Positions 16,464 through 41,103 of a DNA stretch of 52,315 bases are shown here, in pieces; position 1 is the stretch's first letter; each line of letters starts with the position of its first letter. The DNA comes from Halanaerobiales bacterium (lineage in GTDB: Bacteria; Bacillota; Halanaerobiia; Halanaerobiales; M55B127). The translations under genes were made by a program, and so were the position numbers. Location of the stretch: positions 1 to 52,315 of the forward strand of contig JAIPEX010000003.1 in assembly GCA_021736945.1 (NCBI GenBank). Direction: 5' to 3'. The notes under the pieces were generated by a model. The model was not told the origin of the DNA. It did not search any database and saw only the letters and a list, made by a program, of their open reading frames with translations.

Positions 16464-17036
16464 ATGAAGAAAATTGATGCGAGAGGGTTGGATTGTCCAA
16501 AACCTGTAATAAAAACGAAAAAAGTGTTAGAAAAACATGGTGAAGCAGAAGTATTAGTAGATAATGAAGTAGCAGCTGAAAATGTAAAAAAATTAGGAAT
16601 TAAAATGGGTGCTAAAGTTACAAAAGTAAAGGAAAATGAAGGTAATTATAAATTAGTAATAGCAGATTTCAAAAAAGCTGAGAAAAAAAGAGATAAAGAA
16701 GGTAAAGAAAAAGTTATTTTTATAAAATCTAATCTTTTAGGTGAGGGAGAAGCAGAATTAGGTGATATTTTAATAAGAGGATTTATTAACACCTTAAAAG
16801 AGATAGAGCCTTTGCCAAATAAGATTATTTTTATGAATTCAGGAGTTAAGCTACCTTGTGAAAACGATGAAGTTATCAATTCTTTAAAAGAATTAGAAAA
16901 TAAAGGTGTGGACGTTTTAACCTGTGGTACTTGTCTTGATTATTATAACTTAGAGGATAAACTAAAGGTGGGTAATATTAGTAATATGTATGAAATAGTA
17001 GATAGTCTAAATCAAGGAGACGTATTAGAAATATAA
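16464..17036 (+). CDS. yedF: Sulfurtransferase-like selenium metabolism protein YedF
   Basis: N-terminal TusA-like (IDARGLDCPKPVIKTKKVL) plus C-terminal DsrE-like; upstream of selD. Confidence 0.9.
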   Translation: MKKIDARGLDCPKPVIKTKKVLEKHGEAEVLVDNEVAAENVKKLGIKMGAKVTKVKENEGNYKLVIADFKKAEKKRDKEGKEKVIFIKSNLLGEGEAELGDILIRGFINTLKEIEPLPNKIIFMNSGVKLPCENDEVINSLKELENKGVDVLTCGTCLDYYNLEDKLKVGNISNMYEIVDSLNQGDVLEI

Positions 17037-17072
17037 TAATTTTCATGAATTAAGTTAAAGGTGGTGAAATAG

Positions 17073-18113
17073 ATGACTGATGAAATTAGATTAACACAGT
17101 ATAGTAAGACTTCTGGTTGAGCTGCTAAATTGGGCCCCAATGCCCTGGCGCAAGTTTTGCGTCAAGTTAGTTTTGAAAATACAGACCAGAACCTCTTGAT
17201 TGGTATTGAAACCGGTGATGATGCGACAGTGTATAAAATGAATGAGGAAACTGCTTTAATTCAATCAGTAGACTTTTTTACGCCGGTTGTAGATGATCCT
17301 TACATATACGGACAAATTGCAGCTGCTAATGCGCTAAGTGATATATACGCAATGGGTGGTAAACCAATCTTAGCTATGAACATAGTAGGTTTCCCGGAAT
17401 GTTTAAATCAAAGTTTATTAGTTGAAATATTGCAAGGTGGAGCCGATAAAGTTAAAGAAGCAGGTGCTTCATTGGCAGGTGGACATACTGTAAAAGATGA
17501 TGAACCTAAATATGGTTTATCTGTAACTGGATTAGCTCATCCGGATAAACTCTTAACAAATTCAAATGCAAAACCAGGTGATAAATTGATTTTAACTAAA
17601 CCTCTAGGTACAGGAGTAATGATCTCTGCTATTAAAGGGGGACTTGAAAAAGGTGATAAAGCTAACCCAGCGGTTAAATCAATGATAGAATTAAATAATA
17701 AGCCTGTTGATATATTAAAAAAATATAGAATAAATGCTTGTACTGATATCACTGGTTTTGGGTTAATGGGACATTTAACGGAGATGGTAAAAGCAAGTAA
17801 TGTAAATATCAAATTAAATATTAATGATATTCCTATCTTTGATAGTGTAATAGATTATGCTCAAATGGGACTTTTCCCTGAAGGTGGGTATGCTAATAAA
17901 GAAAATTATAAAAATATGGTTTTAGATAAATCAGAGGTCGATGTTGATAGAAAAGATCTTATTTATGATCCTCAGACTTCAGGAGGTTTATTATTTTCGG
18001 TTCCTGGAGAAACTGCAGATAAGATAATTAAGGAACTACATAACCATGGAGTAAATAAAGCGGCAATTATTGGAGAAGTAAAAAAAGGTAAACAAGAAAT
18101 AATATTAAGTTAG
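17073..18113 (+). CDS. selD: Selenide, water dikinase, selenocysteine-containing
   Basis: ATG 17073 after ggtggtga; MTDEIRLTQYSKTSG-U-AAKLGPNALAQVL; in-frame TGA 17118-17120 at the catalytic Cys/Sec position; the track ORF starts only at 17130. Short hairpin attgg-gcc-ccaat 9 nt after the TGA is a SECIS candidate. Confidence 0.96.
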
Positions 18114-18123
18114 GGTGATAAAA

Positions 18124-18384
18124 ATGAAATATTATATACTAACATTTCAATCTACACATCATTATATGAGAGCGGAAAAATTATTTGATGATCTAGATTA
18201 TGAATTTGAACTGGCAAATATTCCACCTGAAATTAGTGCTGATTGTGGTTTGGGATTAAAATTTGATTCTTGTGTAGATGAAGAAAAAGTTTATACAATT
18301 ATCAAAAGAAGTGGAATAGAAATTGACGGTCTATATTATATAGAAAAAAATGAAAATAGTAAGGATTTAGAAAAAATAAAATAA
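18124..18384 (+). CDS. DUF3343 protein (putative Se/S carrier)
   Basis: MKYYILTFQSTHHYMRAEKLFDDLDYEFELANIPPEISADCGLGLKF; adjacent to selD. Confidence 0.87.
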   Translation: MKYYILTFQSTHHYMRAEKLFDDLDYEFELANIPPEISADCGLGLKFDSCVDEEKVYTIIKRSGIEIDGLYYIEKNENSKDLEKIK

Positions 18385-18400
18385 ATATTGTCTAACTACA

Positions 18401-18429
18401 TTGACAATTGGAGCACTGTCTTATATAAT
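18401..18429 (+). promoter_or_regulatory. Sigma-A promoter TTGACA-N17-TATAAT for the grdX/grd operon
   Basis: perfect -35 and -10 hexamers with 17-nt spacer. Confidence 0.85.
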
Positions 18430-18474
18430 ATTAACAGACTTTGTGAAAAAAATATTATATAGATGGTTGAAGAA

Positions 18475-18688
18475 GATGGGAGAGTGCTTAACAGCCGCCG
18501 AAGGGGTAAATTTCCTGATGCCATAGTAGGGAAATGAAACTTTCAGGTAAAAGGACCGTCTTCTGACAGAACTCTGGAAAGTTTATTGTTGAACACCGAA
18601 GGAGCAGTCTACTTCGTGTAGGTAATCTCTCAGGTTTAAAGACAGAGTAGTAATGGTCTATCATTACTATTCTGTCTTTTTTTAGTTT
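18475..18688 (+). promoter_or_regulatory. Tandem glycine riboswitch plus terminator
   Basis: Aptamer 1 gatgggagagtgct...cgccgaaggggtaaa...caggtaaaaggaccgtc; aptamer 2 gacagaactctggaaag...acaccgaaggagcag...aatctctcaggt...aaagacagag; terminator gacagagtagtaatg-gtctat-cattactattctgtcttttttt. Confidence 0.93.
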
Positions 18689-18704
18689 GAAAAAGGAGAT
18701 AATT

Positions 18705-19091
18705 ATGAAAAAATATATTATGATTACAAATAACCCAAAAGTTATTAAAAAATATAAGGATAAAGAAATTTCCATTTTTTCTTTGAATAAGATAGATAAA
18801 ATTTTTACTACCACACGTGATTTAATTCATAAGGGATATATTTTAGTCACTCATCCTTTAGCAGGTAGTATAAAACCTTACCAGAATCCTTATAGATCTA
18901 TTATATTAAAAGAAGGAGAAGAATTAGATTATAATTCCTTAAAAAATTTTGAAAATTCTTTTAAAAAATATAAACAATTTGAACATAATAAATCTAAAAT
19001 AAATAATTTGTCTCAAAAAATATTAGATGATTATCAAGTTATTGATCTTTCTTTGATTGAGAGTGCATTGCAATCAATTAAGAAGGGTTAA
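18705..19091 (+). CDS. grdX: GrdX family protein
   Basis: MITNNPKVIKKYKD...TTTRDLIHKGYILVTHPLAGSIKPYQNPYRSIIL; first gene of grd operon. Confidence 0.9.
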   Translation: MKKYIMITNNPKVIKKYKDKEISIFSLNKIDKIFTTTRDLIHKGYILVTHPLAGSIKPYQNPYRSIILKEGEELDYNSLKNFENSFKKYKQFEHNKSKINNLSQKILDDYQVIDLSLIESALQSIKKG

Positions 19092-19129
19092 TTTAATATA
19101 TAATATTAAATGAGGGGGTGATTATACAA

Positions 19130-19456
19130 ATGCTTGAGCTTAATAAAGAAAATTTTGAATCTGAGGTTCTAGAATCAGAAGGAATTGTTGTTGTAGATTA
19201 TTGGAGTGATAATTGTGATCTTTGTTTAGATTTGATGCCTGATATTGAAAAATTAGCAGAAGAATATGGAGATAAGATAAAGTTTGCTAAACTAAATATC
19301 AAAGGTAATCGAAGATTAGCTATTGGACAGAAGGTATTGGGCTTACCCTCGATAGTATTTTATGAAGATGGTGAGAAACAAGAACATCTGAGTGGTGACG
19401 AACTGGAGCCTGAAGATATAGAAGAAGTACTTGATAAATATTATAAACAGGCTTAA
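19130..19456 (+). CDS. trxA: Thioredoxin (glycine-reductase associated, CDLC active site)
   Basis: VVVDYWSDNCDLCLDLMPDIEKLAEEYG, LGLPSIVFY. Confidence 0.88.
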   Translation: MLELNKENFESEVLESEGIVVVDYWSDNCDLCLDLMPDIEKLAEEYGDKIKFAKLNIKGNRRLAIGQKVLGLPSIVFYEDGEKQEHLSGDELEPEDIEEVLDKYYKQA

Positions 19457-19471
19457 GAAAGGAGGGAAGTT

Positions 19472-20758
19472 GTGAAATTAGAATTAGGTAAAGTTCAAAT
19501 TGATGATATCAGTTTTGGAAATTCCACAGAAATTAATAATAATGTACTTAACATTAATAAAGAGGAACTACTTGAAAATATTAATGGTAACGATGAAATA
19601 AAATCCATTGATATTCAATTAGTTAAACCTGGTGATAGTGTTCGTATTATACCTGTTAAGGATGTAATTGAACCTAGAATTAAGGTCGAAGGACCTGGTG
19701 GAGTCTTTCCAGGTGTTTTATCAGGGGAAGAAATTGTAGGATCTGGTAGAACATTGGCTTTAAAAGGTTGTGCAGTTGTAACAACGGGTAATATTGTTGG
19801 TTTCCAGGAAGGTATTATTGATATGAAAGGACCTGGAGCAGAATATACTCCTTTTTCTAAATTCAATAATATTGTAATTAACTGTGAAGTAAAAGATGAT
19901 GTTCCTCAACATGAACATGAAGAAATTGTAAGAATGGTTGGTCTTAAGGCTTCAACATATTTAGCAGAAGCAGCTAAGGAAGTAGAACCAGATACAGTAG
20001 AAGTATTTGAAAACAAACCATATTATGAAGCTGCGAATCAATATCCAGACTTACCTAAAGTAGGTTATGTTTATATGCTACAAAGTCAGGGATTACTACA
20101 TGATACCTATGTATATGGAGTTGATGCTAAAGAGATCCTACCCACCACTATTTCTCCTACTGAGATTATGGATGGTGCAATTATAAGTGGGAACTGTGTT
20201 TCCGCCTGTGATAAAAACGCTACATATGTTCACCAAAATAATCCCGTAATTGAAGATCTTTATGAAAGACATGGGAAAGACTTTAATTTCATCGGTATTA
20301 TAATAACTAATGAAAATGTAACACTAGCTGATAAAGAAAGATCTTCAAATTATACTGCCAAATTAGCAGAACAAATGGGTCTAGATGCCGCTATAGTTTC
20401 TGAAGAAGGTTTTGGTAATCCTGATGCAGACCTAATCATGAACTGCACAAAATTAGAAGATAAGGGAATTCAAACTGTACTTATTACTGACGAATATGCA
20501 GGAAGAGATGGCAGTTCTCAGTCCTTGGCAGATGCGGATCCCAAGGCTGATGCAGTAGTTACAGCAGGAAATGCTAATGAAGTAATTACCTTACCAAAAA
20601 TGGATAAGGTTATAGGATATAAAAAGACAGCAAATGTTATTGCTGGTGGATTTGATGGTAATATAGAAGAAGATGGCAGTATAACAGTTGAGATACAGGC
20701 AATTACAGGTTCCACTAATGAATTAGGTTTTAATAAGTTAACTACAAGAGATTATTAA
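19472..20758 (+). CDS. grdE: Glycine reductase component B alpha/beta proprotein
   Basis: 428 aa; IISGNCVSACDKNATYVHQNNPVI; between trxA and grdA. Confidence 0.92.
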   Translation: MKLELGKVQIDDISFGNSTEINNNVLNINKEELLENINGNDEIKSIDIQLVKPGDSVRIIPVKDVIEPRIKVEGPGGVFPGVLSGEEIVGSGRTLALKGCAVVTTGNIVGFQEGIIDMKGPGAEYTPFSKFNNIVINCEVKDDVPQHEHEEIVRMVGLKASTYLAEAAKEVEPDTVEVFENKPYYEAANQYPDLPKVGYVYMLQSQGLLHDTYVYGVDAKEILPTTISPTEIMDGAIISGNCVSACDKNATYVHQNNPVIEDLYERHGKDFNFIGIIITNENVTLADKERSSNYTAKLAEQMGLDAAIVSEEGFGNPDADLIMNCTKLEDKGIQTVLITDEYAGRDGSSQSLADADPKADAVVTAGNANEVITLPKMDKVIGYKKTANVIAGGFDGNIEEDGSITVEIQAITGSTNELGFNKLTTRDY

Positions 20759-20782: not shown

Positions 20783-21253
20783 ATGTTAGAAAATAAAAAA
20801 GTTGCTATTCTGGGAGATAGAGACGGAGTTCCCGGACCAGCTATAGAAGAATGTATAAAAACAACTGGAGCAGAAGTTGTTTTTACTACTACTGAATGTT
20901 TCGTCTGAACAAGCGCAGGCGCCATGGACTTGGAAAATCAGCAACGTGTTAAAGATTTAGCTGAAAAACACGGAAAGGAAAACCTAGTTGTTATTTTAGG
21001 TGGAGCAGAAGCAGAAGCTTCCGGCTTAGCCTGTGAAACAGTAACAAATGGTGATCCTACATTTGCAGGTCCATTGGCAGGAGTCCAGTTAGGACTCGCG
21101 TGTTATCATATTTTAGAACCTGAAGTCAAAGAAGAAGTAGATGCAGAGGTTTATGATGAACAGGTATCAATGATGGAAATGGTTTTAGATGTTGACGATA
21201 TTATTGAAGAAACTAAAAAATATAGGGAAATGTATTCTGAATATACCGAATAA
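20783..21253 (+). CDS. grdA: Glycine/sarcosine/betaine reductase selenoprotein A, copy 1 (Sec codon 42)
   Basis: [64 protein letters not shown]...; TGA 20906-20908 in frame with ATG 20783. Confidence 0.97.
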
Positions 21254-21283: not shown

Positions 21284-22591
21284 ATGGCAAAATATAAAAT
21301 TGTCCACTATTTAAACCAATTTTTTGGTCAAATTGGTGGAGAAGAGAAAGCTAATATTGCACCAAAAGTAAAAGACGGCTCAGTTGGGCCCGGTAATGCT
21401 TTCAATAATGCTTTAGGAGATAAAGCGGAAATAGTAAATACTATAATTTGTGGTGATAGTTATTTTAATGAAAATAAAGATGAAGTACAAACTATAATAA
21501 AAGAAAAGTTAAGTGAAATTAATCCTGACATGGTCATTGCTGGACCGGCTTTTAATGCAGGTCGCTATGGTATGGCATGTGGCGGTGTTGCAGAAGTTGC
21601 TCACGATTTAGATATACCTGTAGTATCTGGAATATATCCAGAGAATCCTGGTTATGATATGTATAAGCAATTTGCTTATTTTGTTGAAACAACTGATTCT
21701 GCTGCTGGTATGAGAACTGCCTTACCAAATATGGCCGAATTAGTTAAGACATATATAGAAAAAGAAGGAGAATTAGGTTTACCTGAAGAAGAAGGTTATT
21801 TACCCAGAGGTATTCGAAAAAATATCTTTGTAGATAAAAGAGGTTCTACACGAGCAGTAGATATGTTAGTAGCTAAATTACAGGAGAAAGAATTTAAATC
21901 AGAATATCCAATGCCTAACTTCGATAGAGTAGATCCAGTTGATCCTTTAGAAAATATAGAAGATGCCAAAATAGCTTTAGTTACTTCCGGAGGTATTGTA
22001 CCAAAAGGTAATCCGGATCATATAGAGTCTTCAAGTGCTTCAAAATTTGGCAAATACAGTATTAATGATATATATGAAATGACAGCAGAAACTCACGAAA
22101 CAGCACATGGAGGATATGATCCTGTATATGCTAATGAAGACCCTAACTGTGTACTTCCAGTTGATGTATTAAGAGATATGGAGAATGAAGGAAAAATTGG
22201 TAAACTCCATGATTACTATTATTCTACAGTAGGAAATGGTACTTCTGTAGCAAATGCAAAAGCATATGCCCAAGAAATCGCTCAAGAACTACAGGAGGAT
22301 GGAGTTCAGGCTGTAATACTCACTTCTACCTGAGGTACTTGCACACGTTGCGGAGCAACGATGGTTAAAGAGATTGAAAGAGCAGGTATTCCGGTAGTTC
22401 ATATTGCGACAGTAATACCAATTTCTAAAACTGTAGGAGCTAATAGAATAATACCAGCGGTAGCTATACCACATCCTTTAGGTGATCCTAAACTAGCTGA
22501 AGCTAAACAAAAGGAAATTAGAAGGATATTAGTTGAAAAGGCCTTAGATGCCTTACAAACACCTATTGATAATCAAACAGTTTTTGAATAA
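21284..22591 (+). CDS. grdB: Glycine reductase component B gamma, selenoprotein
   Basis: Track ORFs 21284-22333 and 22361-22591 joined across TGA 22331-22333: ILTST-U-GTCTRCGATMVKEIERAGIP; UxxCxxC motif; SECIS-like cgttgc-gga-gcaacg at 22346-22360. Confidence 0.96.
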
Positions 22592-22770: not shown

Positions 22771-23547
22771 ATGAGTAGTGATGAGGGCAATTATATTCAT
22801 TCTATTCAAAGAGCAGTGAAAGTTTTAGATTTGTTTGATAATGATGTTAAATATTTGGGAGTAACTGAAATAGCAAGGAATTTAGATCTAAATAAAAGTA
22901 CAGTTTACAGATTAGTTAATACACTAAAAAAGGAAGAACTATTAATACAGGAAGAAGATAGTAAAAAATACAGACTAGGATATAAAATACTGGATATTGC
23001 TAATAGAATGAGAAATCAATTAACTCATAATGATGCAGCGTTAGAGGAAATGAAGAAATTAAGAGATCAGACTGGAGAAGCTGTTTTACTCTCCGTTTAT
23101 ACTAATATAGGAGGGGTTTGTATAGAAAAAATTGATACTAAAAATGCAATTAAAGTTACTTCTAAGCCCGGCCATACAACTCCTCTTCACTGTGGAGCAA
23201 CAGGTAAAATTCTTTTAGCTTATGCAGAACAAGATGAAATTAATAGAGTTTTAGAAAAAGATCTAGAAAGTTATACTGAGAATTCAACTACTGATCAAGA
23301 AAAAGTACGTAAACAGCTTAAAGAAATTAGAGAACAGGGTTATGTAATTAGCTGGGGAGAAGTTGATAAAGGTGCTATAGGTATTGGCGCTCCCATTTTA
23401 GATGAGGATGGGAAGTTACTATATGGTTTAAGTTTAGTAGGTCCTGAAGATAGAATTAAATCAAATGGATTAGAAAAAACAATTGATATGGTTGTAAATT
23501 CTGCGGAAGAAATTTCGAGGAAGATCAATATGTTAGACTTTACTTAA
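22771..23547 (+). CDS. IclR family transcriptional regulator
   Basis: 258 aa; N-terminal wHTH SIQRAVKVLDLFDNDVKYLGVTEIARNLDLNKSTVYRLVNTL; C-terminal IclR effector domain. Confidence 0.92.
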   Translation: MSSDEGNYIHSIQRAVKVLDLFDNDVKYLGVTEIARNLDLNKSTVYRLVNTLKKEELLIQEEDSKKYRLGYKILDIANRMRNQLTHNDAALEEMKKLRDQTGEAVLLSVYTNIGGVCIEKIDTKNAIKVTSKPGHTTPLHCGATGKILLAYAEQDEINRVLEKDLESYTENSTTDQEKVRKQLKEIREQGYVISWGEVDKGAIGIGAPILDEDGKLLYGLSLVGPEDRIKSNGLEKTIDMVVNSAEEISRKINMLDFT

Positions 23548-23669: not shown

Positions 23670-24857
23670 GTGAGAAGTAGTGAAGATATTATTTATTTAG
23701 AAGACAAGTATGGTGCAGACAATTATAATCCATTACCGATTGTTATTTCAGAAGCTGAAGGAATTTGGGTTGAGGATCCGGAAGGTAATAGATATATTGA
23801 TATGTTAAGTAGTTATTCAGCAGTTAGTCATGGTCATAGTCATCCTGAAATTGTAAAAACATTAAAAGAACAATCAGAGAAGTTATCACTAACATCCAGA
23901 GCATTTTATAATAATCGATTAGGCTCATTTTATAAGAAATTAGCAGAAGTTACTGGTAAAGATATGTTTTTACCAATGAATACCGGTACTGAAGCAGTTG
24001 AAACTGCTTTAAAAATGGCTAGACGGTGGGGATATTATAAAAAAGGTATACCAGAAAACAAGGCAGAGATAATTACCTGTTCTAATAACTTTCACGGTCG
24101 AGCAATATCAATTATAACATTCAGCACTTCTGAAACATCACGTGATGGTTATGGTCCCTATGTACCGGGTTTTAAAGTTATAGAATATGGAAGTGTAGAA
24201 AAACTTAAAGAGGCAATTAATCCCAATACTGCAGCCTTTTTAGTGGAACCTATCCAAGGAGAAGGCGGTATTATAATTCCCCCCGATGGATATTTAAAAG
24301 AAGCATATGAGGTTTGTCAAGAAAATGATGTATTGTTTATGGCAGATGAAGTTCAGACTGGATTTGGGCGGACTGGAAAAATGTTTGGTTGTGATTGGGA
24401 AAATGTAACTCCTGATGTCTATATATTAGGTAAAGCCCTGGGAGGTGGAGTATTCCCCGTTTCTGCAGTAGGAGCAGATCAGGAGATTATGGAAGTTTTT
24501 GATCCTGGTTCACATGGTTCCACATTTGGAGGTAATCCATTAGGATCTGCGGTTGCTAAAAGAGCTATTGAATTACTTGAAGAAGAAAATATGGTTGAAA
24601 ATTCCAGGAAAATGGGTGAATATTTACTAAACAAATTAAAGGAAATTGATAACCCAGTAATTAAAGAAATTAGAGGCAGAGGCCTATTTATTGGTATTGA
24701 ATTAGAAGAAAAAGCCCGACCATATTGTAAAGAATTAAAGAAAAATGGAGTATTGGTCAAAGAAACCCATGGTAATATAATTAGAACTTTACCCCCTTTA
24801 ATTATAAATAAAGAAGAGGTTGATGAAGCAGTAAGAAGAATAAAGCAAGTGTTTTAA
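23670..24857 (+). CDS. rocD: Class III aminotransferase, ornithine aminotransferase-like
   Basis: 395 aa; [63 protein letters not shown]. Confidence 0.82.
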
Positions 24858-24972: not shown

Positions 24973-25027
24973 TTGACAATTTAAAACCTGAGTGTTATAC
25001 TAAGATAAATAATACCCATGTGGGGTA
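24973..25027 (+). promoter_or_regulatory. Sigma-A promoter TTGACA-N17-TATACT with CsoR-like operator TACCCATGTGGGGTA
   Basis: ttgaca 24973-24978; tatact 24996-25001; TACCC-N5-GGGTA at 25013-25027. Confidence 0.6.
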
Positions 25028-25076
25028 TAAATACAGTCTAAGAATAATAGATTTAAAGTTCTCAGGAGGGGAATTT

Positions 25077-25625
25077 ATGTATAAATATATGAGTATATTT
25101 TTTATTGTATTTTTGATATTAATAATGGTTGGAGGTAGTGTTTTAGCACAACCTGGAATGGGTCCAATGGGTAATGGTCACATGATGGAATCTATAAGCA
25201 GTGAATATGAATTTTTAATAAAAATGATTCCTCATCATGAAGAAGCAGTTTATACTGCAAAAATTTTAAAAGAAAAGACTAATCGAGAAGAAATGAGAGA
25301 GTTTGCTGATAAAATTATAGAAACTCAAAGTAGAGAAATAGAACAAATGAATGAGTGGCTTGATAAATGGTATCCAAACAGAGAAAATTATTATGAATAT
25401 CAAGCAATGATGGGAAATTATGAAAATATAGAAGGTAATCAGTTAGACCAGGTATTTTTACAAGATATGATTTTTCATCATATGGCAGCAGTAATGATGT
25501 CTCAACAACTAATTGTAAATGGATTCGCAGAACATGAAGAAGTATATAATTTGGCATTGAGTATTAGAACCAATCAAAGAAATGAAATCTTCCAGATGAG
25601 AGAATGGCTTGGAAGTTGGTATTAA
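25077..25625 (+). CDS. DUF305 domain protein, secreted
   Basis: MYKYMSIFFIVFLIL...; FLIKMIPHHEEAVYTAKI and QDMIFHHMAAVMMSQQL paired His motifs. Confidence 0.85.
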   Translation: MYKYMSIFFIVFLILIMVGGSVLAQPGMGPMGNGHMMESISSEYEFLIKMIPHHEEAVYTAKILKEKTNREEMREFADKIIETQSREIEQMNEWLDKWYPNRENYYEYQAMMGNYENIEGNQLDQVFLQDMIFHHMAAVMMSQQLIVNGFAEHEEVYNLALSIRTNQRNEIFQMREWLGSWY

Positions 25626-26414: not shown

Positions 26415-26882
26415 ATGCTTAAAGGTAAAAAAGTCGCAATTTTAGGTGACAGAGATGGAGTACCTGGCCCTGCTATAAAAGAATGTATTGAATCAGCTGG
26501 AGCAGAAGTAGTGTTTACTACTACTGAATGTTTCGTCTGAACAAGCGCAGGTGCCATGGACTTGGAGAACCAACAACGTGTTAAAGATTTAGCTGAAAAA
26601 CACGGGAAGGAAAACCTTGTTGTTATATTGGGTGGAGCAGAAGCAGAAGCTTCCGGCTTAGCCTGTGAAACAGTAACAAATGGTGATCCTACATTTGCAG
26701 GTCCATTGGCAGGAGTCCAGTTAGGACTCGCGTGTTATCATATTTTAGAGCCAGAGATTAAAGAAGAGATAGATCCTGATGTTTACGATGAACAGGTTTC
26801 CATGATGGAAATGGTCTTAGATGTAGATGAAATCGCTGATGAAGTATCTACTTATCGTGGAAAGTATTCTGAATTTGCTTAA
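26415..26882 (+). CDS. grdA: Glycine/sarcosine/betaine reductase selenoprotein A, copy 2 (Sec codon 42)
   Basis: [56 protein letters not shown]...; TGA 26538-26540. Confidence 0.97.
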
Positions 26883-28261: not shown

Positions 28262-28280
28262 TACACGGGAGGTGAATTTG

Positions 28281-31326: not shown

Positions 31327-32001
31327 CTATTCGTTTTCACAACAGATTGCGTCATTCACAATCGTCTTAATGTGTGATGTAATTTTATTTACTGCTTCTT
31401 CAACTGAATAATCAATTCTATTATTAATGGTTAAAGTCAACATTCCATGGTAGATGTAAGTAATCATATTATCTACTTCTTCAGCTTTTTCTGGAGATAA
31501 ATAACCATTTTCAATTAATGGTTTAGAAGCTATGGAAGCCCGGCGTGATAAATCTGGATCTAAAAGCATGGGAATTAGTCTTTCAGGGGGATCGCCTAAT
31601 TTTTCAGGAAAAATCTGAAAATATTTTTCCATTAATGTCTCTGGATGATCCCCAAGTTTTTCAGTAAAAATTGCATAATAGATATTGGGATTTTCAAAAG
31701 AAAACTTACAAAAACATTCCCACATCAAAATGAAGCGTTCGATTTCATCATCAGCTTTTTTTATGTATTCGGGCATAGTTTGAATATAATCACTTAAAAA
31801 ATCTAAAGAAGCAAAGAAAATAAGTTGCTTATAGTTATCAAAATAATTATATATGGTAGCACTATTATAGCCCGCTTTTTTTGCAACACTACGGATAGTA
31901 ACTTTTTTAATACCTTTTTCTTCGATAACTTCTTTAGTTGCTTGGATGAAATATTTTAAGATTCGTTTCTTTTTAATATCTTTTTTATCAATATCAATCA
32001 A
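31327..32001 (-). CDS. TetR/AcrR family regulator
   Basis: N-terminal HTH GIKKVTIRSVAKKAGYNSATIYNYFDNYKQLIFFAS. Confidence 0.9.
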   Translation of the reverse strand: MIDIDKKDIKKKRILKYFIQATKEVIEEKGIKKVTIRSVAKKAGYNSATIYNYFDNYKQLIFFASLDFLSDYIQTMPEYIKKADDEIERFILMWECFCKFSFENPNIYYAIFTEKLGDHPETLMEKYFQIFPEKLGDPPERLIPMLLDPDLSRRASIASKPLIENGYLSPEKAEEVDNMITYIYHGMLTLTINNRIDYSVEEAVNKITSHIKTIVNDAICCENE

Positions 32002-32166: not shown

Positions 32167-33372
32167 ATGAGCAATACATATGATCTAATAGTTATTGGAG
32201 GCGGTCCAGCAGGTATGTCAGCAGCAATTTATGGTTCGCGTTCTCGCCTCAATACATTGGTTTTAGAAGCAAAGAGAAAGACAGGTGGACAACCTTCTAC
32301 ATATCATGATATGGAAAATTATCCGGGGGTACCTGAAACTACAGCACCTGAGTTGATGGACAACTTTAGAGAACATGCCGAAAAGTTTAATACAGAATTT
32401 GAAAGAGGAGAAGTTGTAGACCTTAAGGTCAACGGACTTGAAAAGATAGTAAAGACTAAAAAGGGTGAGGAATATAAAGCTAAAAGTGTTGTTTTAGCTA
32501 CAGGAGCTGAACCAAGAAAATTGGGTATCGAAGGAGAAGAAGAGCTCAAAGGAAAAGGTGTGTCCTACTGTGCCACATGTGATGCAGATATTTTTGAAGG
32601 GCTTGATGTAGTGGTAGTAGGTAATGGTAATTCTGCTGTTGAAGAATCAATATATCTCACAAAATTTGTTGAAAATTTAACAATGATTGTTATCCATGAT
32701 GAGGGAGTTATGGATGCTGAAAAGATTTTGCAAGAGAAAGCAATGGAAAATGAAAAAATAGATTTTGTTTGGAATTCAGTTGTAGAAGAAATTAAAGGTG
32801 ATGGTATGGTAGAAAAGGCAGTCGTGAAAAACATTAAAACTGGAGAAACTGAAGAACTTGACTGTCATGGAGTATTCTTTTTCGTAGGAAGAGTACCTAA
32901 TACTGATTTCTTAAAAGGAACCGTAGAACTAACAGAAAATGGTTATATAAAAGCAAATGACGAGATGGAAACAAATCAACCTGGAGTATATGCGGTTGGA
33001 GATGTAAGAAACAAGGTAGTTAGACAGGTAATAACAGCAGCGGGAGATGGAGCTACTGCTGCAGTAATGGCACAAGGATATATAGAAGAGGAAGATTATT
33101 GGCAGAATAATGTATTGAAATCAGAAAATCCTGTTATAGTTGCTTTTTGGAGTGTAACAGACCAGGACAGCATGGATATGATAAGTGAATTAGAGGCTAT
33201 GGGGATTGAAGATAAAGATTATAGGTTTGTAAAAATAGACACCTATAAAAACAGATTGATTTCTAATCGTTATGATATTGAAGAGATTCCAACTATAGTT
33301 AAATTGGTAGATGGTGAAGTAGCAGAAAAATTAGTAGACCCATCCACCGAAGAAATTAAAAGCATATTATAA
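32167..33372 (+). CDS. trxB: Thioredoxin reductase with C-terminal thioredoxin-like extension lacking CxxC
   Basis: 401 aa; IVIGGGPAGMSAAIYGSRS, redox CATC, VVVVGNGNSAVEES, AVGDVRNKVVRQVITAAGDG; extra ~80 aa NPVIVAFWSVTDQDSMDMIS...IEEIPTIVKL. Confidence 0.92.
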   Translation: MSNTYDLIVIGGGPAGMSAAIYGSRSRLNTLVLEAKRKTGGQPSTYHDMENYPGVPETTAPELMDNFREHAEKFNTEFERGEVVDLKVNGLEKIVKTKKGEEYKAKSVVLATGAEPRKLGIEGEEELKGKGVSYCATCDADIFEGLDVVVVGNGNSAVEESIYLTKFVENLTMIVIHDEGVMDAEKILQEKAMENEKIDFVWNSVVEEIKGDGMVEKAVVKNIKTGETEELDCHGVFFFVGRVPNTDFLKGTVELTENGYIKANDEMETNQPGVYAVGDVRNKVVRQVITAAGDGATAAVMAQGYIEEEDYWQNNVLKSENPVIVAFWSVTDQDSMDMISELEAMGIEDKDYRFVKIDTYKNRLISNRYDIEEIPTIVKLVDGEVAEKLVDPSTEEIKSIL

Positions 33373-33390: not shown

Positions 33391-33708
33391 ATGTTAGAAT
33401 TAGGAAAAGAAAATTTTGAAGATGAAGTATTAAATTCTAAAGAAATTGTTTTAGTGGACTTTTGGAGTGATAACTGTGACCTTTGTTTAGATTTAATGCC
33501 TGATGTAGAAGAATTAGCGGAAGAATATGGTGATGATATTAAATTTGCAAAACTTAATATTAAAGGTAATAGAAGGTTAGCAATTGGTCAGAAAGTACTT
33601 GGACTACCTTCCATTGTGTTATATGAAGATGGAGAAAAAGTAGAACATTTAAGTGGAGATGAATTAGAAGTAGAAGATATCCGTGAAGCTATAGAAGCAA
33701 GAGTTTAA
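33391..33708 (+). CDS. trxA: Thioredoxin, copy 2 (CDLC)
   Basis: VLVDFWSDNCDLCLDLMPDVEELAEEYG; close paralogue of 19130-19456. Confidence 0.9.
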   Translation: MLELGKENFEDEVLNSKEIVLVDFWSDNCDLCLDLMPDVEELAEEYGDDIKFAKLNIKGNRRLAIGQKVLGLPSIVLYEDGEKVEHLSGDELEVEDIREAIEARV

Positions 33709-33758: not shown

Positions 33759-33786
33759 CTATGAAAATAATTCGGAGGTGGAAATA

Positions 33787-35331
33787 TTGAGTTTTCCAGT
33801 AATTAAAGGTTCAAGTTATATACTTGTACACACACCAAATATATTAAAACAAGGTGGTTCTACTCAGACCACAACAAGAGCAAAAGACCCTAATGATGAA
33901 TATCTTAAACAAATGGATGATCACTTACGTAGTTTTGAAGAATTTGTAGGTTATGCCCCCAATCAGGCTTATATAGGCAATATTTTACCAAATGACCTAG
34001 AAGAAATAGAACAACCATGGTATGAAAATGATAATCTTCTGGAAGCAAAAAAAGAAGGACAATTCGGAGAAATTATGCCGGAAGATCAATTTATTGCCCT
34101 TATAAAACATGTTGATGTATTTGATCTTGTAAAATTAAGTGAAGAGTTTTGTGAAAAAGGTCAAAATTTAGTTAATGAACATCCTATTTTAAAAGAGATG
34201 GATATTGATTTAGGAGCGGGAGAACCAAAAGAAGATTTACAGAAATTAGTTGACGAACATTCAGAACCACTTTATTTAGATAATGAACTAGTAGGTTGTG
34301 TAAAAAAAGCACATGAAACTGATATTAATTTAAGTGCCCACGTAATTTATGAAAACTTAATAGCTAAAGCTTCAGCAGTATTAGCTATGAAAGATCTTGA
34401 ATATAGAAATGAAGATGTTGACCTCTCAGAAGTAGATTATATTTTAGAATGTTCTGAAGAAGCATGTGGAGATATTAATCAACGTGGAGGAGGAAACTTC
34501 GCAAAAGCAATTGGAGAAATGGCAGGTTGTAATGATGCAACTGGTTCTGACGTGAGAAGTTTCTGTGCTGCTCCTGCTCATGCCATGGTTAATGCAGCTG
34601 CATTAGTTAAAGCCGGAGTTTACGACAATGTTGCAGTTGTAGCTGGTGGTTCTGTAGCAAAATTAGGGATGAATGGTAAAGACCATGTTAAAAAAGAGAT
34701 GCCAATTCTAGAAGATGGACTTGGTGGTTTCGCAATAATAATCTCTAAAAATGATGGTGTAAATCCAATAATTAGAACAGATATTGTAGGACGCCATAAA
34801 GTTGGTACCGGTTCTTCACCACAGGCTGTAATAAGTTCTTTAGTTACTGATCCCCTTGATAAACATGAGATCAGTATAAAAGATATTGATAAATATTCCG
34901 TAGAGATGCAGAATCCTGAAATTACAAAACCGGCTGGGGCTGGAAATGTACCAGAATCAAATTATAAGATGATTGCAGCTCTTGGTGTTAAAAGAGGAGA
35001 CTTAGAACGCAAAGAATTAATGGATTTTGTAGGAGAACATGGAATGCCCGGGTTTGCCCCTACTCAAGGTCATATTCCTTCAGGAGTACCTTTTGTGGGT
35101 CCAGCAGTGGAAATGATAAAGGACGGTAAGATCAATAATGCCATGATTATTGGTAAAGGTAGTCTTTTCCTAGGCAGAATGACCAATCTATTTGATGGAG
35201 TATCTTTTGTCATGGAAAGAAACAAAGGAACTGAACCTGAAAAATCAGAAGTCAGTGATAAAGAGATTAAAAATATGATTGCTGATGCCATGCGTCAGAT
35301 GGCTGAAAACATAACCGGCGAGTCTAATTGA
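33787..35331 (+). CDS. grdC: Glycine/sarcosine/betaine reductase component C subunit beta
   Basis: FPVIKGSSYILVHTPNILKQGGSTQTTTR; FabH-like; GFAPTQGHIPSGVPFVGPA; the track start 33778 is also possible. Confidence 0.95.
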   Translation: MSFPVIKGSSYILVHTPNILKQGGSTQTTTRAKDPNDEYLKQMDDHLRSFEEFVGYAPNQAYIGNILPNDLEEIEQPWYENDNLLEAKKEGQFGEIMPEDQFIALIKHVDVFDLVKLSEEFCEKGQNLVNEHPILKEMDIDLGAGEPKEDLQKLVDEHSEPLYLDNELVGCVKKAHETDINLSAHVIYENLIAKASAVLAMKDLEYRNEDVDLSEVDYILECSEEACGDINQRGGGNFAKAIGEMAGCNDATGSDVRSFCAAPAHAMVNAAALVKAGVYDNVAVVAGGSVAKLGMNGKDHVKKEMPILEDGLGGFAIIISKNDGVNPIIRTDIVGRHKVGTGSSPQAVISSLVTDPLDKHEISIKDIDKYSVEMQNPEITKPAGAGNVPESNYKMIAALGVKRGDLERKELMDFVGEHGMPGFAPTQGHIPSGVPFVGPAVEMIKDGKINNAMIIGKGSLFLGRMTNLFDGVSFVMERNKGTEPEKSEVSDKEIKNMIADAMRQMAENITGESN

Positions 35332-35341
35332 GGTGAATGAA

Positions 35342-36481
35342 ATGGCAGATAAAACTAAGGAAAAAGTAGCTGGAATTTTTAATGAACTGGCAGATGCAAT
35401 TGAATCTGGACAGTTTGGCGAAAAGAAAAAAATCGGACTAACTTTACTTGATAGTGAGCATGGACCAGAAGAACTACAAAAAGCTGCTAAGATGGCTCAA
35501 AATAATAATAGTGATATAGATGTTGTAGAAATTGGTTGTGATGGAGATAAGTGTTCTTGTTTAGCTGATGCTCATGAAATTATGGATCAAAAATTAAAAA
35601 ATAATGATATTGATGCATCTGTAACTTTACACTATAATTTCCCATTCGGTGTATCAACTGTAGGTAGGGTGATAACACCTGGAAGAGGCAAAGAAATGTT
35701 GATTGCAACCACAACTGGAACTAGTGATACTAATCGTGTGGCTTCAATGTTAAAAAATACTATTTATGGAATTGCTACTGCGAAATCTTTAGGTATTGAA
35801 AATCCCAAGGTAGGTATTTTAAATGTTGATGGAGCCAGGCTAGTTGAAAATAACTTGAGAGAGCTAAAAGATAACGGTTATGATATAGAATTTGCAACTT
35901 CAGTAAGATCAGATGGTGGATTTGTAATGCGCGGGAATGACCTTTTAATGGGTGTTCCTGATGTGATGGTTACAGATACATTAACCGGAAATATGTTAAT
36001 GAAAATATTCTCTGCTTATACTACAGGTGGTACTTATGAAGCTAAGGGCTTTGGTTATGGTCCTGGAGTTAGTACCGAATATGATCAATTGGTAGGTATT
36101 ATTTCTAGAGCATCTGGGGCACCAGTTATAGCAAATGCTATTAAATATATGGCAGAAGTTAGTAAAGGGAACTTGCTTAAAGTTACAAAAGAAGAGATGA
36201 AAAAGGCCAAAAAAGCAGGACTTACAGACCTTATTGAAGAATTAAAAAGTAAGAGTGAAACCAAAGAAGTAGAAGATGTAAAACAACCTGAGAAAAAAGT
36301 TACAGGTGAAGAAATAGCAGGTATTGATATTTTAGAGATTGAAACTGCTCAAAAATCACTTTGGAAAGAAGATATATATGCTGAAACAGGTATGGGGTGT
36401 ACAGGCCCAGTAGTATTAGTAGCAGAAGAAGATGAAGAGAAAGCAAGAGAAATCCTTAAGGAAGAAGGATTTATTCATTAA
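35342..36481 (+). CDS. grdD: Glycine/sarcosine/betaine reductase component C subunit alpha
   Basis: PlsX-like; follows grdC; KTKEKVAGIFNELADAIESGQFG, ETGMGCTGPVVLVAEEDEEKAREIL. Confidence 0.94.
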   Translation: MADKTKEKVAGIFNELADAIESGQFGEKKKIGLTLLDSEHGPEELQKAAKMAQNNNSDIDVVEIGCDGDKCSCLADAHEIMDQKLKNNDIDASVTLHYNFPFGVSTVGRVITPGRGKEMLIATTTGTSDTNRVASMLKNTIYGIATAKSLGIENPKVGILNVDGARLVENNLRELKDNGYDIEFATSVRSDGGFVMRGNDLLMGVPDVMVTDTLTGNMLMKIFSAYTTGGTYEAKGFGYGPGVSTEYDQLVGIISRASGAPVIANAIKYMAEVSKGNLLKVTKEEMKKAKKAGLTDLIEELKSKSETKEVEDVKQPEKKVTGEEIAGIDILEIETAQKSLWKEDIYAETGMGCTGPVVLVAEEDEEKAREILKEEGFIH

Positions 36482-37629
36482 TGATATATTTTAATAATGC
36501 AGCGACTACTTATCCAAAACCTGAAAGTGTTTATCAAGAAGTTAATAAATTTTTCAGGCAGGAAGGGGTTAACCCCGGTAGGTCGCAGGATGTAAAAACT
36601 ATGAATATAAATAGAAGAATCTTTAATACAAGGGAGCAGATTGCCCAATTTTTTGGTATTAAAGATTCTTCTCGTTTTATTTTTACATCTGGTGCAACTG
36701 AATCTTTAAATTTAGCAATTAAAGGTTCTTTAAATAAAAATGATCATGTAATTACTACTAAGTTAGAACATAATTCAGTAATCCGCCCTCTCAATAAGTT
36801 GAGTAACGAGGGCCGGATTACTGTTACTTATCTTGATTTTAATAAAAATGGTATAATTTCTCTAGAAGATATTAAAAAAACAGTTCAAAAAAATACAGCT
36901 CTTATTATTATTTCTCATGCTTCAAATGTTTTAGGAACTGTAAATAATATCATTGAGATAGGAAAATTTGCAAAAAACAATGATTTTTTATTATTAGTAG
37001 ATGCAGCTCAAACAGCTGGTATTTTAAATATTGACATAGATAATTTAAATATTGACTTATTATCTGTACCAGGTCATAAATCTCTTTATGGACCCCCAGG
37101 TATAGGTGGTCTATATATTAGAGAAGGGCTTGAAATTGATACTCTTATGGAAGGTGGAACAGGTAGTAATTCATTAAATACTCTACAACCTAAAATAATG
37201 CCGGATAAATATGAAAGTGGTACTTTGAATACCTTAGGTATTATTGGTTTAGGAGCCGGGATAAAATTTATAAAAAATACTGGAATGAAAAAAATATATA
37301 ATCATGAGATGAATTTATTAAATAGATTTTTAAATGGACTTAGAAGTATTAAAAATATCCTAATTTATGGACCAACTGATTTGGATAAAAAAGTTGGGGT
37401 GGTTAGTATAAATTTAATGAATCTAAGTGCTGCTAAATTTTCTCATCTCCTGCAAAATAAATATAATATATCTGTCAGAGGAGGATTACATTGTGCTCCA
37501 TTACTTCATAAAAAAATGGGGACTGACAATAAAGGAATGGTAAGATTTAGTTTTAGTTATTTTAATACCTTAAAAGAAATTGATAATGCTTTAAATGCTA
37601 TTAAACGGATAGCGGAAAAAGAGGGATAA
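36481..37629 (+). CDS. Class V aminotransferase, NifS/CsdB-like cysteine desulfurase or selenocysteine lyase
   Basis: 382 aa; FNNAATTYPKPESVYQEV, HNSVIRPL, VDAAQTAGILNIDIDNL, PGHKSLYGPPGIGGLYI, RGGLHCAPLLHKKMGT. Confidence 0.88.
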   Translation: MIYFNNAATTYPKPESVYQEVNKFFRQEGVNPGRSQDVKTMNINRRIFNTREQIAQFFGIKDSSRFIFTSGATESLNLAIKGSLNKNDHVITTKLEHNSVIRPLNKLSNEGRITVTYLDFNKNGIISLEDIKKTVQKNTALIIISHASNVLGTVNNIIEIGKFAKNNDFLLLVDAAQTAGILNIDIDNLNIDLLSVPGHKSLYGPPGIGGLYIREGLEIDTLMEGGTGSNSLNTLQPKIMPDKYESGTLNTLGIIGLGAGIKFIKNTGMKKIYNHEMNLLNRFLNGLRSIKNILIYGPTDLDKKVGVVSINLMNLSAAKFSHLLQNKYNISVRGGLHCAPLLHKKMGTDNKGMVRFSFSYFNTLKEIDNALNAIKRIAEKEG

Positions 37630-37632
37630 ATT

Positions 37633-39036
37633 ATGAAAAAGGAATTATTTAAAAAAATACCGGCCGTTAATGATCTTTTGGAGAATGAAAAAGGTAAAGA
37701 ACTAGTTGAAACTTACAACCATAGTTTAGTTCTTAAAGGTATCAGAAAAGTATTGGATCGGAAAAGAAAAATAATTTCAAAAACTGATGAAGAAGAACTT
37801 AACGAGTTAAAGCTGTCTTTAGAATTAACAAACTTATATAATGAAATTGAAGAATACATAGTTGATTATTTAGCCCCCTCTTTAGAACAAGTTATTAATG
37901 CTACTGGAACAATAGTCCATACTAATCTAGGTCGTTCTTTATTGTCTAAAGAAGCGGTAGATTCTCTAGTGAAGGTCGCTCAAAATTATTCAACTTTAGA
38001 GATAGATAAAAGGACAGGTGAAAGGGGTTCCCGTTATAATAATGTAAAAGATCTATTAACAGATCTCTGTGGAGCAGAAGATGGATTAGTGGTGAACAAT
38101 AATGCTGCTGCAGTTTTACTGATATTAGATACTTTTGCTAAAAATAAAGAAGTGATTTTAGCAAGAGGAGAAATGGTTGAAGTAGGAGGATCATTTCGAA
38201 TTCCAGAAGTAATGGAAAAAAGTGGGGCCGAGCTAGTTGAAGTAGGAGCCACAAATAAGGTATACATAGAAGATTATGAGAATAAAATTAATGAAAATAC
38301 TGGTATGCTTTTAAAAGTTCATACCAGTAATTATAGAGTGATGGGTTTTACTGAAGAAGTAAAACTAAAAGAACTGGTTGAATTAGGTAATAAAACCAAT
38401 TTACCAGTTGTAGAAGATCTAGGTAGTGGGATTATTGAAGATCTTAGTGATTTAGGTCTTAAGGATGAACCAACTGTTAAAGATAAAATAGATCAAGGAG
38501 CTGATTTGGTTTCTTTCAGTGGAGATAAATTATTAGGTGGTCCTCAATCTGGAATAATTGTAGGCAAAAAAGGTTTTATTGATAAGCTCAAAAAGAATCC
38601 TTTAACTAGAGCTTTAAGAGTAGATAAATTCACATTAGCTTCTTTAGAAGCAACTCTAAAGGCTTATATAGAAGAAGATGCACGCGAAAAATTACCCACC
38701 TTGAATATGTTAAGCCAAAATATTGATTTAATTAAAGATAAGGCAGTTAGACTTAAAGAAAAGTTAGATAACTTACAGATTGAAAGTTTAGATATTGAGA
38801 TAGAAAAAGATTCAACGAAAATAGGTGGAGGGGCATTTCCTCTGCAGGACATACCAACTTATGTGGTTAAAATTAAAACAGATAAAATGGAATTAAATGA
38901 ACTTTCTTATAAATTAAGAATGAATAAACCTCCAATTTTTACTCGTTTATATAATGAAAATATGTTTTTTGATTTAAGGACTATTAAAGAGACAGAAATA
39001 GACCAAATCGTAACGGCTTTAAAAAATATATTATAA
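37633..39036 (+). CDS. selA: L-seryl-tRNA(Sec) selenium transferase
   Basis: 467 aa; VINATGTIVHTNLGRSLLSKEA, VEDLGSGIIEDL, VSFSGDKLLGGPQSGIIVGKK. Confidence 0.97.
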   Translation: MKKELFKKIPAVNDLLENEKGKELVETYNHSLVLKGIRKVLDRKRKIISKTDEEELNELKLSLELTNLYNEIEEYIVDYLAPSLEQVINATGTIVHTNLGRSLLSKEAVDSLVKVAQNYSTLEIDKRTGERGSRYNNVKDLLTDLCGAEDGLVVNNNAAAVLLILDTFAKNKEVILARGEMVEVGGSFRIPEVMEKSGAELVEVGATNKVYIEDYENKINENTGMLLKVHTSNYRVMGFTEEVKLKELVELGNKTNLPVVEDLGSGIIEDLSDLGLKDEPTVKDKIDQGADLVSFSGDKLLGGPQSGIIVGKKGFIDKLKKNPLTRALRVDKFTLASLEATLKAYIEEDAREKLPTLNMLSQNIDLIKDKAVRLKEKLDNLQIESLDIEIEKDSTKIGGGAFPLQDIPTYVVKIKTDKMELNELSYKLRMNKPPIFTRLYNENMFFDLRTIKETEIDQIVTALKNIL

Positions 39037-39052
39037 CTCAGGAGGAAGCGTT

Positions 39053-40957
39053 ATGTCCCAGAAAAATTTTATTATAGGAACTGCTGGACATATCGATCAT
39101 GGTAAAACCACACTTATCGAAGCTCTTAGTGGGACAGATACCGACCGATTATCCGAAGAAAAAGAAAGAGGAATCTCTATAGATTTAGGCTTTACAGATC
39201 TTAAATTAAACGATGATTATACATTAGGTATTGTTGATGTTCCTGGTCATGAAAAGTTTATTAAAAATATGTTAGCAGGTGCTGGGGGAGTTGATATTGC
39301 TCTACTTGTAGTAGCTGCTGATGAAGGTGTTATGCCCCAAACTAGAGAACATCTAGATATTTTGAGTTTGTTGAATGTTAAAAGGGGTATTACTGTAGTA
39401 ACTAAAACTGATCGGGTAGAACAAGAATGGTTAGAATTGATGATTGAAGAGATTAGAGAAGAGCTTTCAAATACATTTCTTAAAGATGAGCCTATACTAC
39501 CTGTTTCTGCGCTTGAAAATACTGGCTTAGATGATTTGAAAGAAACGATAATAACTACGATAGAGAGTATGCAAGAAAAAGAGATTACTGGTAATGTATA
39601 TTTTCCTATCGACAGAGTTTTTACAATTAAAGGCCATGGTACTATAGTGACTGGTACATTGGTAAGTGGAAAAATTGAAAAAGAAGATAATTTAACGATA
39701 TATCCTTCTCAAAAAGAAGCAAGAGTTAGAAGTCTAGAGGTACATAATGAAGATGCCGAAACAGCTTATCCAGGCCAAAGAGTAGGAATAAATTTATCAG
39801 GTGTAGATAAAGATGAAATTGATAGAGGAGATGTATTAGCTACTTCCGAGAGCTTAATTAACACAAAATTTTTGGATGGTAGATTAACTGTCTTAAAAAA
39901 TGCTCCTTTAATAGTTGAACACGGTGATCGGATAAGGTTTCATATTGGTGCCAAGGAAGTTATTGGAAGAGTTTATCTTTTAGATAAAGAAGAACTTTTA
40001 CCTGGCGAGAGTGGATTGGTTCAATATAGGTTAGAGGAAGAAGTTGTAGCTCGTTATAATGAGAATTATGTTATTAGGCGATATTCTCCAATGACTACCA
40101 TTGGAGGAGGCAATATTTTAGATACTCATCCTCATCGCAGAAAACGTTTTGATGAAAAAGCAATTGAAGAATTAAAGAAAAAAGAAAAATTAGATGATAA
40201 AGAGCGAATAGAATTTATAATAAAATTAAACAAAAAAGAAACAATAAACACTAAATTTTTAATAAAAAAGAGCAGCTTGCGAGAAGATAAAATAAATGAG
40301 ACTTTAAATAAATTATATTCTGAAGAAAAAGTCAAATATTTTGATAAAGGGACCAATACGACATGGATTCATAATAAAAATTATGTAAAACTGAAAAAAG
40401 AGATTATTAATAAGTTAGAAAAATTCCATAACGAAAACAGACTTAAGATAGGAATCTCGAAAGAAGAGTTAAGAACAAAAGTAAGCATAGATTTGGATAA
40501 TATTGAATTTAATCAATTACTTAATGAATTAGAAAATGAAGAAAAAGTTGATATTAAAGGTTCGTTTGTAAAGCTATTTAATCATAAAATTAAGCTTAAT
40601 GAAAAAGAAAAAGAAATTAAAAAAGAAATATTAGAGGAATTTGAAAAAAATATATTTATGCCGCCTCAAGTGGACGAAATTATTGAAAAAAATACAAAAA
40701 AGGAAGAAGTGTTTAATTATTTAATAGAAGAACGAATAATTATTCATATTAAAGAAGATTTATTTTTCCTTGCTTCAGCAGTAAAAAAAGCAAAAAAATT
40801 ACTAATAGATTACTTGGAGAAAAATCAAGAAATTACTTTAGCTGAATATAGAGATTTATTGGATAGTAGTAGAAAATATACCTTAGCTTTACTTGAATAT
40901 TTTGATCAAAATAATATTACAAAGAGAACCGGAGAAAAAAGAATTTTGGTAAATTAA
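39053..40957 (+). CDS. selB: Selenocysteine-specific translation elongation factor
   Basis: 634 aa; GTAGHIDHGKTTLIEALSGTDTDRLSEEKERGISIDLGF; C-terminal winged-helix repeats. Confidence 0.97.
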   Translation: MSQKNFIIGTAGHIDHGKTTLIEALSGTDTDRLSEEKERGISIDLGFTDLKLNDDYTLGIVDVPGHEKFIKNMLAGAGGVDIALLVVAADEGVMPQTREHLDILSLLNVKRGITVVTKTDRVEQEWLELMIEEIREELSNTFLKDEPILPVSALENTGLDDLKETIITTIESMQEKEITGNVYFPIDRVFTIKGHGTIVTGTLVSGKIEKEDNLTIYPSQKEARVRSLEVHNEDAETAYPGQRVGINLSGVDKDEIDRGDVLATSESLINTKFLDGRLTVLKNAPLIVEHGDRIRFHIGAKEVIGRVYLLDKEELLPGESGLVQYRLEEEVVARYNENYVIRRYSPMTTIGGGNILDTHPHRRKRFDEKAIEELKKKEKLDDKERIEFIIKLNKKETINTKFLIKKSSLREDKINETLNKLYSEEKVKYFDKGTNTTWIHNKNYVKLKKEIINKLEKFHNENRLKIGISKEELRTKVSIDLDNIEFNQLLNELENEEKVDIKGSFVKLFNHKIKLNEKEKEIKKEILEEFEKNIFMPPQVDEIIEKNTKKEEVFNYLIEERIIIHIKEDLFFLASAVKKAKKLLIDYLEKNQEITLAEYRDLLDSSRKYTLALLEYFDQNNITKRTGEKRILVN

Positions 40958-41004
40958 TTTACATCTAACAATAAATAATGTATAATAATCTTTGTGAAAA
41001 ACAA

Positions 41005-41103
41005 GGGAGCGGCTGTGTCCATGGTGGACACCTTGGACTTCAAATCCAATGGGAGGTCGGCAGACCGGCCTTTGGTGGGTTCGATTCCCACACGTTCCCG
41101 CCA
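41005..41103 (+). tRNA. selC: tRNA-Sec (anticodon TCA, 41040-41042)
   Basis: gggagcgg-ct-gtgtcc atggt ggacac (6-bp D stem)-ttggaCTTCAAAtccaa-long variable arm gggaggtcggcagaccggcc-gtggg ttcgatt cccac-acgttccc-g-cca; own promoter tttaca-N17-tataat (40958-40986). Confidence 0.97.

Follow-up and report, generated by a model that had tools for sequence, protein, structure and literature searches.

A selenocysteine and glycine/betaine reductase gene cluster of a Halanaerobiales genus: probable vertical inheritance and partial loss in sister species

We analyzed a gene cluster at positions 16464 to 41103 of a 52,315-nucleotide (nt) stretch of DNA, hereafter the window, which is contig C8 in the 2.36-Mb, 154-contig draft genome of a Halanaerobiales bacterium (G000) whose named neighbors are uncultured Halanaerobiales. 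A preliminary description had presented it as a compact, self-sufficient module of selenium and reductase genes that could in principle move. Comparison of this genome with 60 relatives (61 genomes searched in all), including the four other members of its genus (G001 to G004), suggests instead that it is very probably a vertically inherited chromosomal cluster, which combines the organism's only selenocysteine (Sec) gene set with a glycine and a betaine reductase sharing component C, and whose reductase (grd) part was lost in part of the genus. Proteins were assigned by profile searches against curated family models with their cut-offs, RNAs with Rfam, and tRNAs with ARAGORN, and matches of these kinds recovered every gene previously named, each in its place.

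The cluster lies on the forward strand except for one regulator and opens with yedF, coding for a sulfurtransferase-like selenium metabolism protein (16464..17036; TIGR03527, 222 bits, cut-off 110), selD, coding for a Sec-containing selenophosphate synthetase with TGA at codon 16 (17073..18113; TIGR00476, 398 bits), and a gene for a Se/S carrier-like protein (18115..18384; DUF3343, PF11823, 75.2 bits). Ahead of the genes for glycine reductase then stands a glycine riboswitch (18467..18568), which scores above the Rfam cut-off (RF00504, 57.9 versus 32 bits) and whose 3' end lies about 120 bases ahead of grdX (18687..19091; NF038093, 127 bits). Behind grdX come trxA1, coding for a grd-type thioredoxin (19118..19456; NF047697, 152 bits), grdE, for the glycine reductase component B proprotein (19472..20758; PF09338, 709 bits), grdA1, for selenoprotein A (20783..21253; NF040748, 281 bits), and grdB, for glycine reductase selenoprotein B (21284..22591). 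Genes for an IclR-family regulator (22771..23547; PF01614/PF09339), an ornithine aminotransferase-like protein (oat; 23670..24857; TIGR01885, 541 bits, cut-off 378), and a DUF305/CopM-like protein (25020..25625; PF03713, 105.5 bits), along with an 84-amino-acid (aa) open reading frame (ORF), separate this glycine part from the betaine part. The latter comprises grdA2, for a second selenoprotein A (26415..26882; NF040748, 283 bits), grdI, for the betaine reductase component B proprotein (26936..28261; related to NF040793, at 352 bits below that cut-off), grdH, for betaine reductase selenoprotein B (28272..29600), and, directly behind grdH, a gene for a BCCT glycine betaine transporter (29699..31282; TIGR00842, 503 bits, above the cut-off; NF047988, 633 of 650 bits). 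A TetR-family regulator gene on the reverse strand (31327..32001; PF00440) precedes trxB, for thioredoxin reductase (32167..33372; TIGR01292, 354 bits), trxA2, for another grd-type thioredoxin (33391..33708; NF047697, 151 bits), and grdC and grdD, for the beta (33778..35331; NF040746, 794 bits) and alpha (35333..36481; NF040747, 572 bits) subunits of component C. The last genes code for a NifS-like cysteine desulfurase resembling selenocysteine lyases (36481..37629; TIGR01977, 491 bits, cut-off 377), which falls under the curated SclA cut-off (388 versus 525 bits) and fits the wider TIGR01977 desulfurase family, selenocysteine synthase (selA; 37633..39036; TIGR00474, 594 bits), the Sec-specific elongation factor (selB; 39053..40957; TIGR00475, 394 bits), and tRNA-Sec (selC; 41005..41103; ARAGORN; RF01852, 67.5 bits). 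The preliminary description was thus correct in the genes that it listed and in their grouping, but it omitted grdX, grdE, grdI, the transporter, both regulators, oat, the DUF305 gene, and the riboswitch, and its compact block is interrupted by the four intervening ORFs noted above.

All five selenoproteins claimed for the cluster, namely SelD, GrdA1, GrdA2, GrdB, and GrdH, have an in-frame TGA at the expected place. In the two GrdA proteins it is codon 42 within the same motif, ECFVU (nt 20906 in grdA1 and nt 26538 in grdA2); in GrdB and GrdH it is codon 350 (nt 22331) and codon 354 (nt 29331), respectively, both within STUGTC, and in each gene an Rfam Sec insertion sequence element (SECIS_4, RF01990) directly follows the UGA (22334..22371, 61.5 bits, in grdB; 29334..29371, 61.2 bits, in grdH). 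With selA, selB, selC, and selD, together with selenoproteins bearing UGA at the active site, the genome has what defines the bacterial Sec-decoding trait. Each of these four genes occurs once in the genome, and no extra selA, selB, or selC, which had been named as a finding that would speak against the module, is present. The two reductases can likewise be told apart. GrdB scores above the glycine-specific cut-off of TIGR01917 (648.7 versus 602.2 bits) and GrdE carries the sequence SGNCVSACD, whereas GrdH scores above the cut-off of NF040795 (825.5 versus 775 bits) and GrdI carries SGSFMPCSS; the GNCVS and GSFMP motifs have been used to tell glycine from betaine reductase (PMC7530209). A single component C is encoded for both, so that the enzymology originally proposed, glycine and betaine reductase with a complete Sec pathway, is borne out. 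The acetate kinase gene, which it had been suggested to look for, lies outside the block at C49 of the same genome; a TAA inside its match turned out to be the normal end of the gene.

On the basis of this gene content, glycine would act on the riboswitch to switch on grdX-trxA-grdE-grdA-grdB, in line with the riboswitch control suggested for the glycine reductase set of Clostridioides difficile (PMC11477304). Betaine would be imported by the BCCT transporter and then reduced by GrdI/GrdH with GrdA2. Both reductases are predicted to hand a carboxymethyl group to the GrdA selenol, with GrdA being reduced by the dedicated TrxB/TrxA pair and GrdC/GrdD converting the product to acetyl phosphate, from which the acetate kinase encoded elsewhere would yield ATP.

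The Sec machinery also has clients beyond the cluster. Elsewhere in G000, outside the window, there are at least three more genes for selenoproteins, two for peroxiredoxins (Prx) with an in-frame TGA and one for a PrdB-like protein. The Prx genes (C50:18639-19037, locus L210, and C21:9173-9535) have the TGA at the peroxidatic position, and one of them is confirmed with the Sec context DFTFV-U-PTEL. In family searches, TGA-containing Prx genes number two per genome in G000, G001, and G003 and at least one each in G002 and G004; that at L163:10146-10751 of G003 is of the PrxU type (355 bits). The PrdB-like gene, with the TGA in the motif APTUPICNQS, is found at L219:1492-2262 (G001) and L220:1492-2016 (C52 of G000); its product scores 168 bits, below the PrdB cut-off of 300, and no PrdA-like gene was seen among the ORFs listed on these two short loci. 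A search for the UGSC family returned nothing beyond GrdB itself. Because selenoperoxiredoxins and a PrdB-like protein are encoded elsewhere, the Sec machinery is not private to the block, and with acetate kinase also outside it, the claim of self-sufficiency fails.

The association of Sec and reductase genes extends well beyond this genus. A grdC gene above the cut-off was recovered in 23 of the 61 genomes; selA lies within 4 kb of it in 12 of these 23 and within 17 kb in 14, and the linkage spans the families that we label f1, f2, f3, f5, f8, and f11. Two blocks of conserved order, grdX-trxA-grdE-grdA-grdB and grdA-grdI-grdH-bcct-tetR-trxB-trxA-grdC-grdD, recur in several families. A genome of another family, G035, has nearly the whole arrangement within about 23 kb, in the order yedF-selD-grdX-grdE-grdB, then a spacer, then grdA-grdI-grdH-bcct-tetR-trxB-trxA-grdC-grdD-selC-selA-selB. 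The spacer (L049/L050) holds genes for alanine racemase and alanine dehydrogenase and a membrane-protein ORF, a putative alanine:sodium symporter, which likely represent Stickland electron donor genes placed beside those for the acceptors; at the same position, the window instead carries iclR, the ornithine aminotransferase gene, and the DUF305 gene. Recurrence of the order in relatives, as would be expected of ordinary inheritance, is thus largely what is observed, but it is not universal: the two sets lie apart in G011, G028 (76 kb), and G039 (about 400 kb). Several genomes, such as G011 and G012, have two copies of grdCD.

Within the genus, the same locus is found in different states. G001 has the same block, divided between two contigs. 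G002, G003, and G004 have no grd genes and show yedF-selD-DUF3343-tetR-nifS-selA-selB-selC at the same spot, with matching upstream genes where the contig reaches that far; in G003, which is 97% complete, no match to grdA, to grdC at the component level, or to the GRDB family was found anywhere in the genome. The tetR gene retained in these three species is the regulator of the betaine operon, an intact ORF of 222 to 223 residues that is 81 to 85% identical to that of the window. In addition, G004 has DNA of the riboswitch and the start of grdX as well as a grdD relic, 205 codons long, whose reading frame is broken by two stops and several 1-bp frameshifts, and G002 retains a short piece of grdD. 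These scar matches score at least 53.6 bits, against 44.6 bits for the best of 600 shuffled control sequences. The riboswitch remains of G002 and G004 gave no Rfam score even at E = 1, so that DNA similarity is their only support. A clean empty site was not found in the relatives; rather, the sites of G002 to G004 carry remains of the cluster, which mark deletions and imply that the block predates the loss. A single loss suffices, since in the tree of selA and selB these three species group together as a clade adjacent to G000 and G001. We accordingly picture a cluster that would already have been at this locus in the ancestor of the genus and whose grd part would then have been deleted between the DUF3343 gene and nifS in the lineage of the three sister species.

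The retained Sec genes have clients in these species as well. G002, G003, and G004 all keep a Sec-containing SelD. The idea that they maintain Sec decoding for SelD only was discarded on two grounds: the PrxU-type selenoperoxiredoxin emerged when 1.31 Mb of the G003 genome (about 60% of it) were screened for a TGA flanked on either side by coding sequence, and family searches showed that each of the five species has Prx genes containing TGA. Hence, selenoproteins encoded outside the block probably explain why the machinery outlived the reductases, and the sister species would keep it for SelD and the selenoperoxiredoxins. In the window, the genes from trxB onward are tightly packed, with gaps of 18 bp (trxB-trxA2), 69 bp (trxA2-grdC), and 1 bp (grdC-grdD), a 1-bp overlap of grdD with nifS, and gaps of 3 bp (nifS-selA) and 16 bp (selA-selB). 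This spacing suggests that the genes for Sec synthesis and decoding could be transcribed with those of component C, and nifS-selA-selB-selC probably form a unit with grdC-grdD. More tentatively, and with somewhat less than even confidence, we propose that trxB-trxA-grdC-grdD-nifS-selA-selB-selC is one transcript that ties the capacity for making Sec to reductase demand. The sister species would then display the uncoupling of the two: decay would strike the reductases first, whereas selection would preserve the orphan TetR and, on account of the selenoperoxiredoxins, the Sec genes.

Phylogenetic trees of rpoB, of selA with selB, and of grdI with grdH all place the family of the window next to f3 and apart from f5, and the selAB data do not reject an rpoB-like grouping of f1 with f2 (p = 0.228). 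The congruence anticipated for vertical descent therefore holds at the family level for selAB and grdIH; it breaks down in grdCD at a single genome, G014. Several observations weigh against our interpretation, this conflict among them: the grdCD tree puts G014, a member of f3, with the genus of the window (support 91/93), and a clade formed by its own family f3 is rejected for these genes (approximately unbiased test, p = 0.017), which could reflect one or more exchanges of component C or an error of the model. Further, in some trees the positions of G005 and of the class-level outgroups are poorly supported, and every member of the genus is a draft genome. G001 (L063) and G005, members of different families, have RpoB proteins with 100% identity, which points to a contig having been misbinned in either draft. 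Finally, the transcription units, the riboswitch response, and betaine reduction itself are steps predicted from sequence.

An alternative that draws on the G014 conflict holds that component C, alone or with parts of the betaine set, passed between Halanaerobiales families, everything else, including the Sec genes, having descended vertically. Also on its side is the presence of two grdCD copies in genomes such as G011 and G012, which makes loss or conversion of a paralog possible. Against it, the conflict is not shared by the trees of grdIH and selAB (though G014 has no grdIH), and one discordant result among many tests could be a model error; on balance we regard such an exchange as possible but doubtful. 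A far less likely scenario is that of a mobile, self-sufficient Stickland module recently transferred into the genus and inserted between the DUF3343 gene and nifS. The occurrence of the grd part at one locus, present in two species and absent from three, had at first suggested just such a recent insertion, the grdCD conflict could be read in the same way, and comparable movements have been reported: of a block of sel and grd genes in Shewanella sp. MTB7 (PMC10059138) and, in Photobacterium profundum, of the Sec trait along with a glycine reductase selenoproteome (PMC1273633). By analogy, movement of the present block would not be impossible in principle. However, the betaine-operon tetR, decayed riboswitch region, and grdD pseudogene of the grd-less species turned the reading into one of loss, every one of the five species of the genus has the sel genes, and the G+C content of the block (0.328) is in keeping with that of its flanks (0.302 and 0.293), as is that of third codon positions in its genes. 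Family scans of the window proteins revealed no integrase or transposase, end repeats and att sites not having been searched systematically. Compactness, which had been singled out as the interesting part, is better seen as a trait common in the order and class. That sel and grd genes came to be packed together by mere chance, without functional or historical meaning, is hardly credible even in view of the genomes where the sets lie apart, since by our estimate random placement in a 2.5-Mb genome would bring selA within 4 kb of grdC in less than 1% of cases and both partners and order recur across families.

The thioredoxin system of the cluster shows features of its own. The grd-linked TrxB is about 400 aa long and has a C-terminal thioredoxin-like domain (PF00085, residues 309-399 in the window protein) that lacks the CxxC motif, with FWSVTDQDS or FWSPTNEES at the active-site position. 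This cysteine-free domain is present in all 22 copies examined across the class; among the 55 solved relatives listed there was none whose alignment covered it. Both thioredoxins of the window (19118-19456 and 33391-33708) have CDLC at the active site, with CDxC or CExC in nearly all relatives, where the proline of the clostridial [G/S]C[V/E]PC motif is often missing. To the right of the block, the region 44658-48806 contains genes for an ArsR-type regulator, an ACR3 arsenite exporter, a rubrerythrin (46291-46818), a TetR protein, and two ArsP-like half permeases, which together look like a set for metalloid resistance; an in-frame TGA of the ACR3 gene at 45057 was considered as a Sec codon and dismissed as part of a double stop at the gene end. 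A rubrerythrin-like gene also lies inside the scar of G002 and G003, in the gap between tetR and nifS (L039, L040).

Several known systems resemble the cluster in part. The clostridial grd operon, found in C. difficile and other proteolytic Clostridia, unites grdX, trxA, trxB, grdE, grdA, grdB, grdC, and grdD (PMC10880999, PMC11477304), the same genes with a glycine riboswitch in front. The window differs in adding a betaine-specific set with its transporter, in the Sec genes that follow directly, in the cysteine-free domain of TrxB, and in CDLC rather than [G/S]C[V/E]PC in TrxA. Closer in taxonomy are the glycine betaine fermentation genes of Halanaerobium, a member of the same order, with a GSFMP-type GrdI, GrdH, GrdA, and GrdC/GrdD (PMC7530209, citing Daly et al. 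2016); in the portion of that source available to us, they are listed without mention of a linkage to sel genes, unlike those of the window. Sec genes are joined to grd genes in Shewanella sp. MTB7, where selA and selB lie upstream of an operon of grdB, grdE, selD, grdD, grdC, grdA, trxA, and trxB (PMC10059138); that cluster is strain specific and held to be horizontally acquired, whereas the one described here is old in its genus and partly lost in sister species. The proteobacterial selA-selB-selC-fdhA clusters similarly set Sec-decoding genes beside a selenoprotein client, but there the client is formate dehydrogenase, the only selenoprotein (PMC1794560). Linkage of Sec genes to client operons and their transfer together with glycine reductase have therefore already been reported (PMC1794560, PMC1273633, PMC10059138). 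Our literature search, whose coverage left out most subscription journals, found no paper joining glycine betaine reductase, selenocysteine, and Halanaerobi-, nor one joining glycine reductase and Halanaerobiales.

Since the type of cluster is known, the value of the case, a modest one, lies mainly in a loss series caught in progress. Earlier surveys deduced the loss of selenoproteins largely from patterns of presence and absence; here, intact, pseudogene-bearing, and nearly erased versions at one locus in one genus offer a direct view of it. They suggest that a tidy and portable-looking block for energy and selenium metabolism can be an old resident of the chromosome that individual lineages lose piecemeal.

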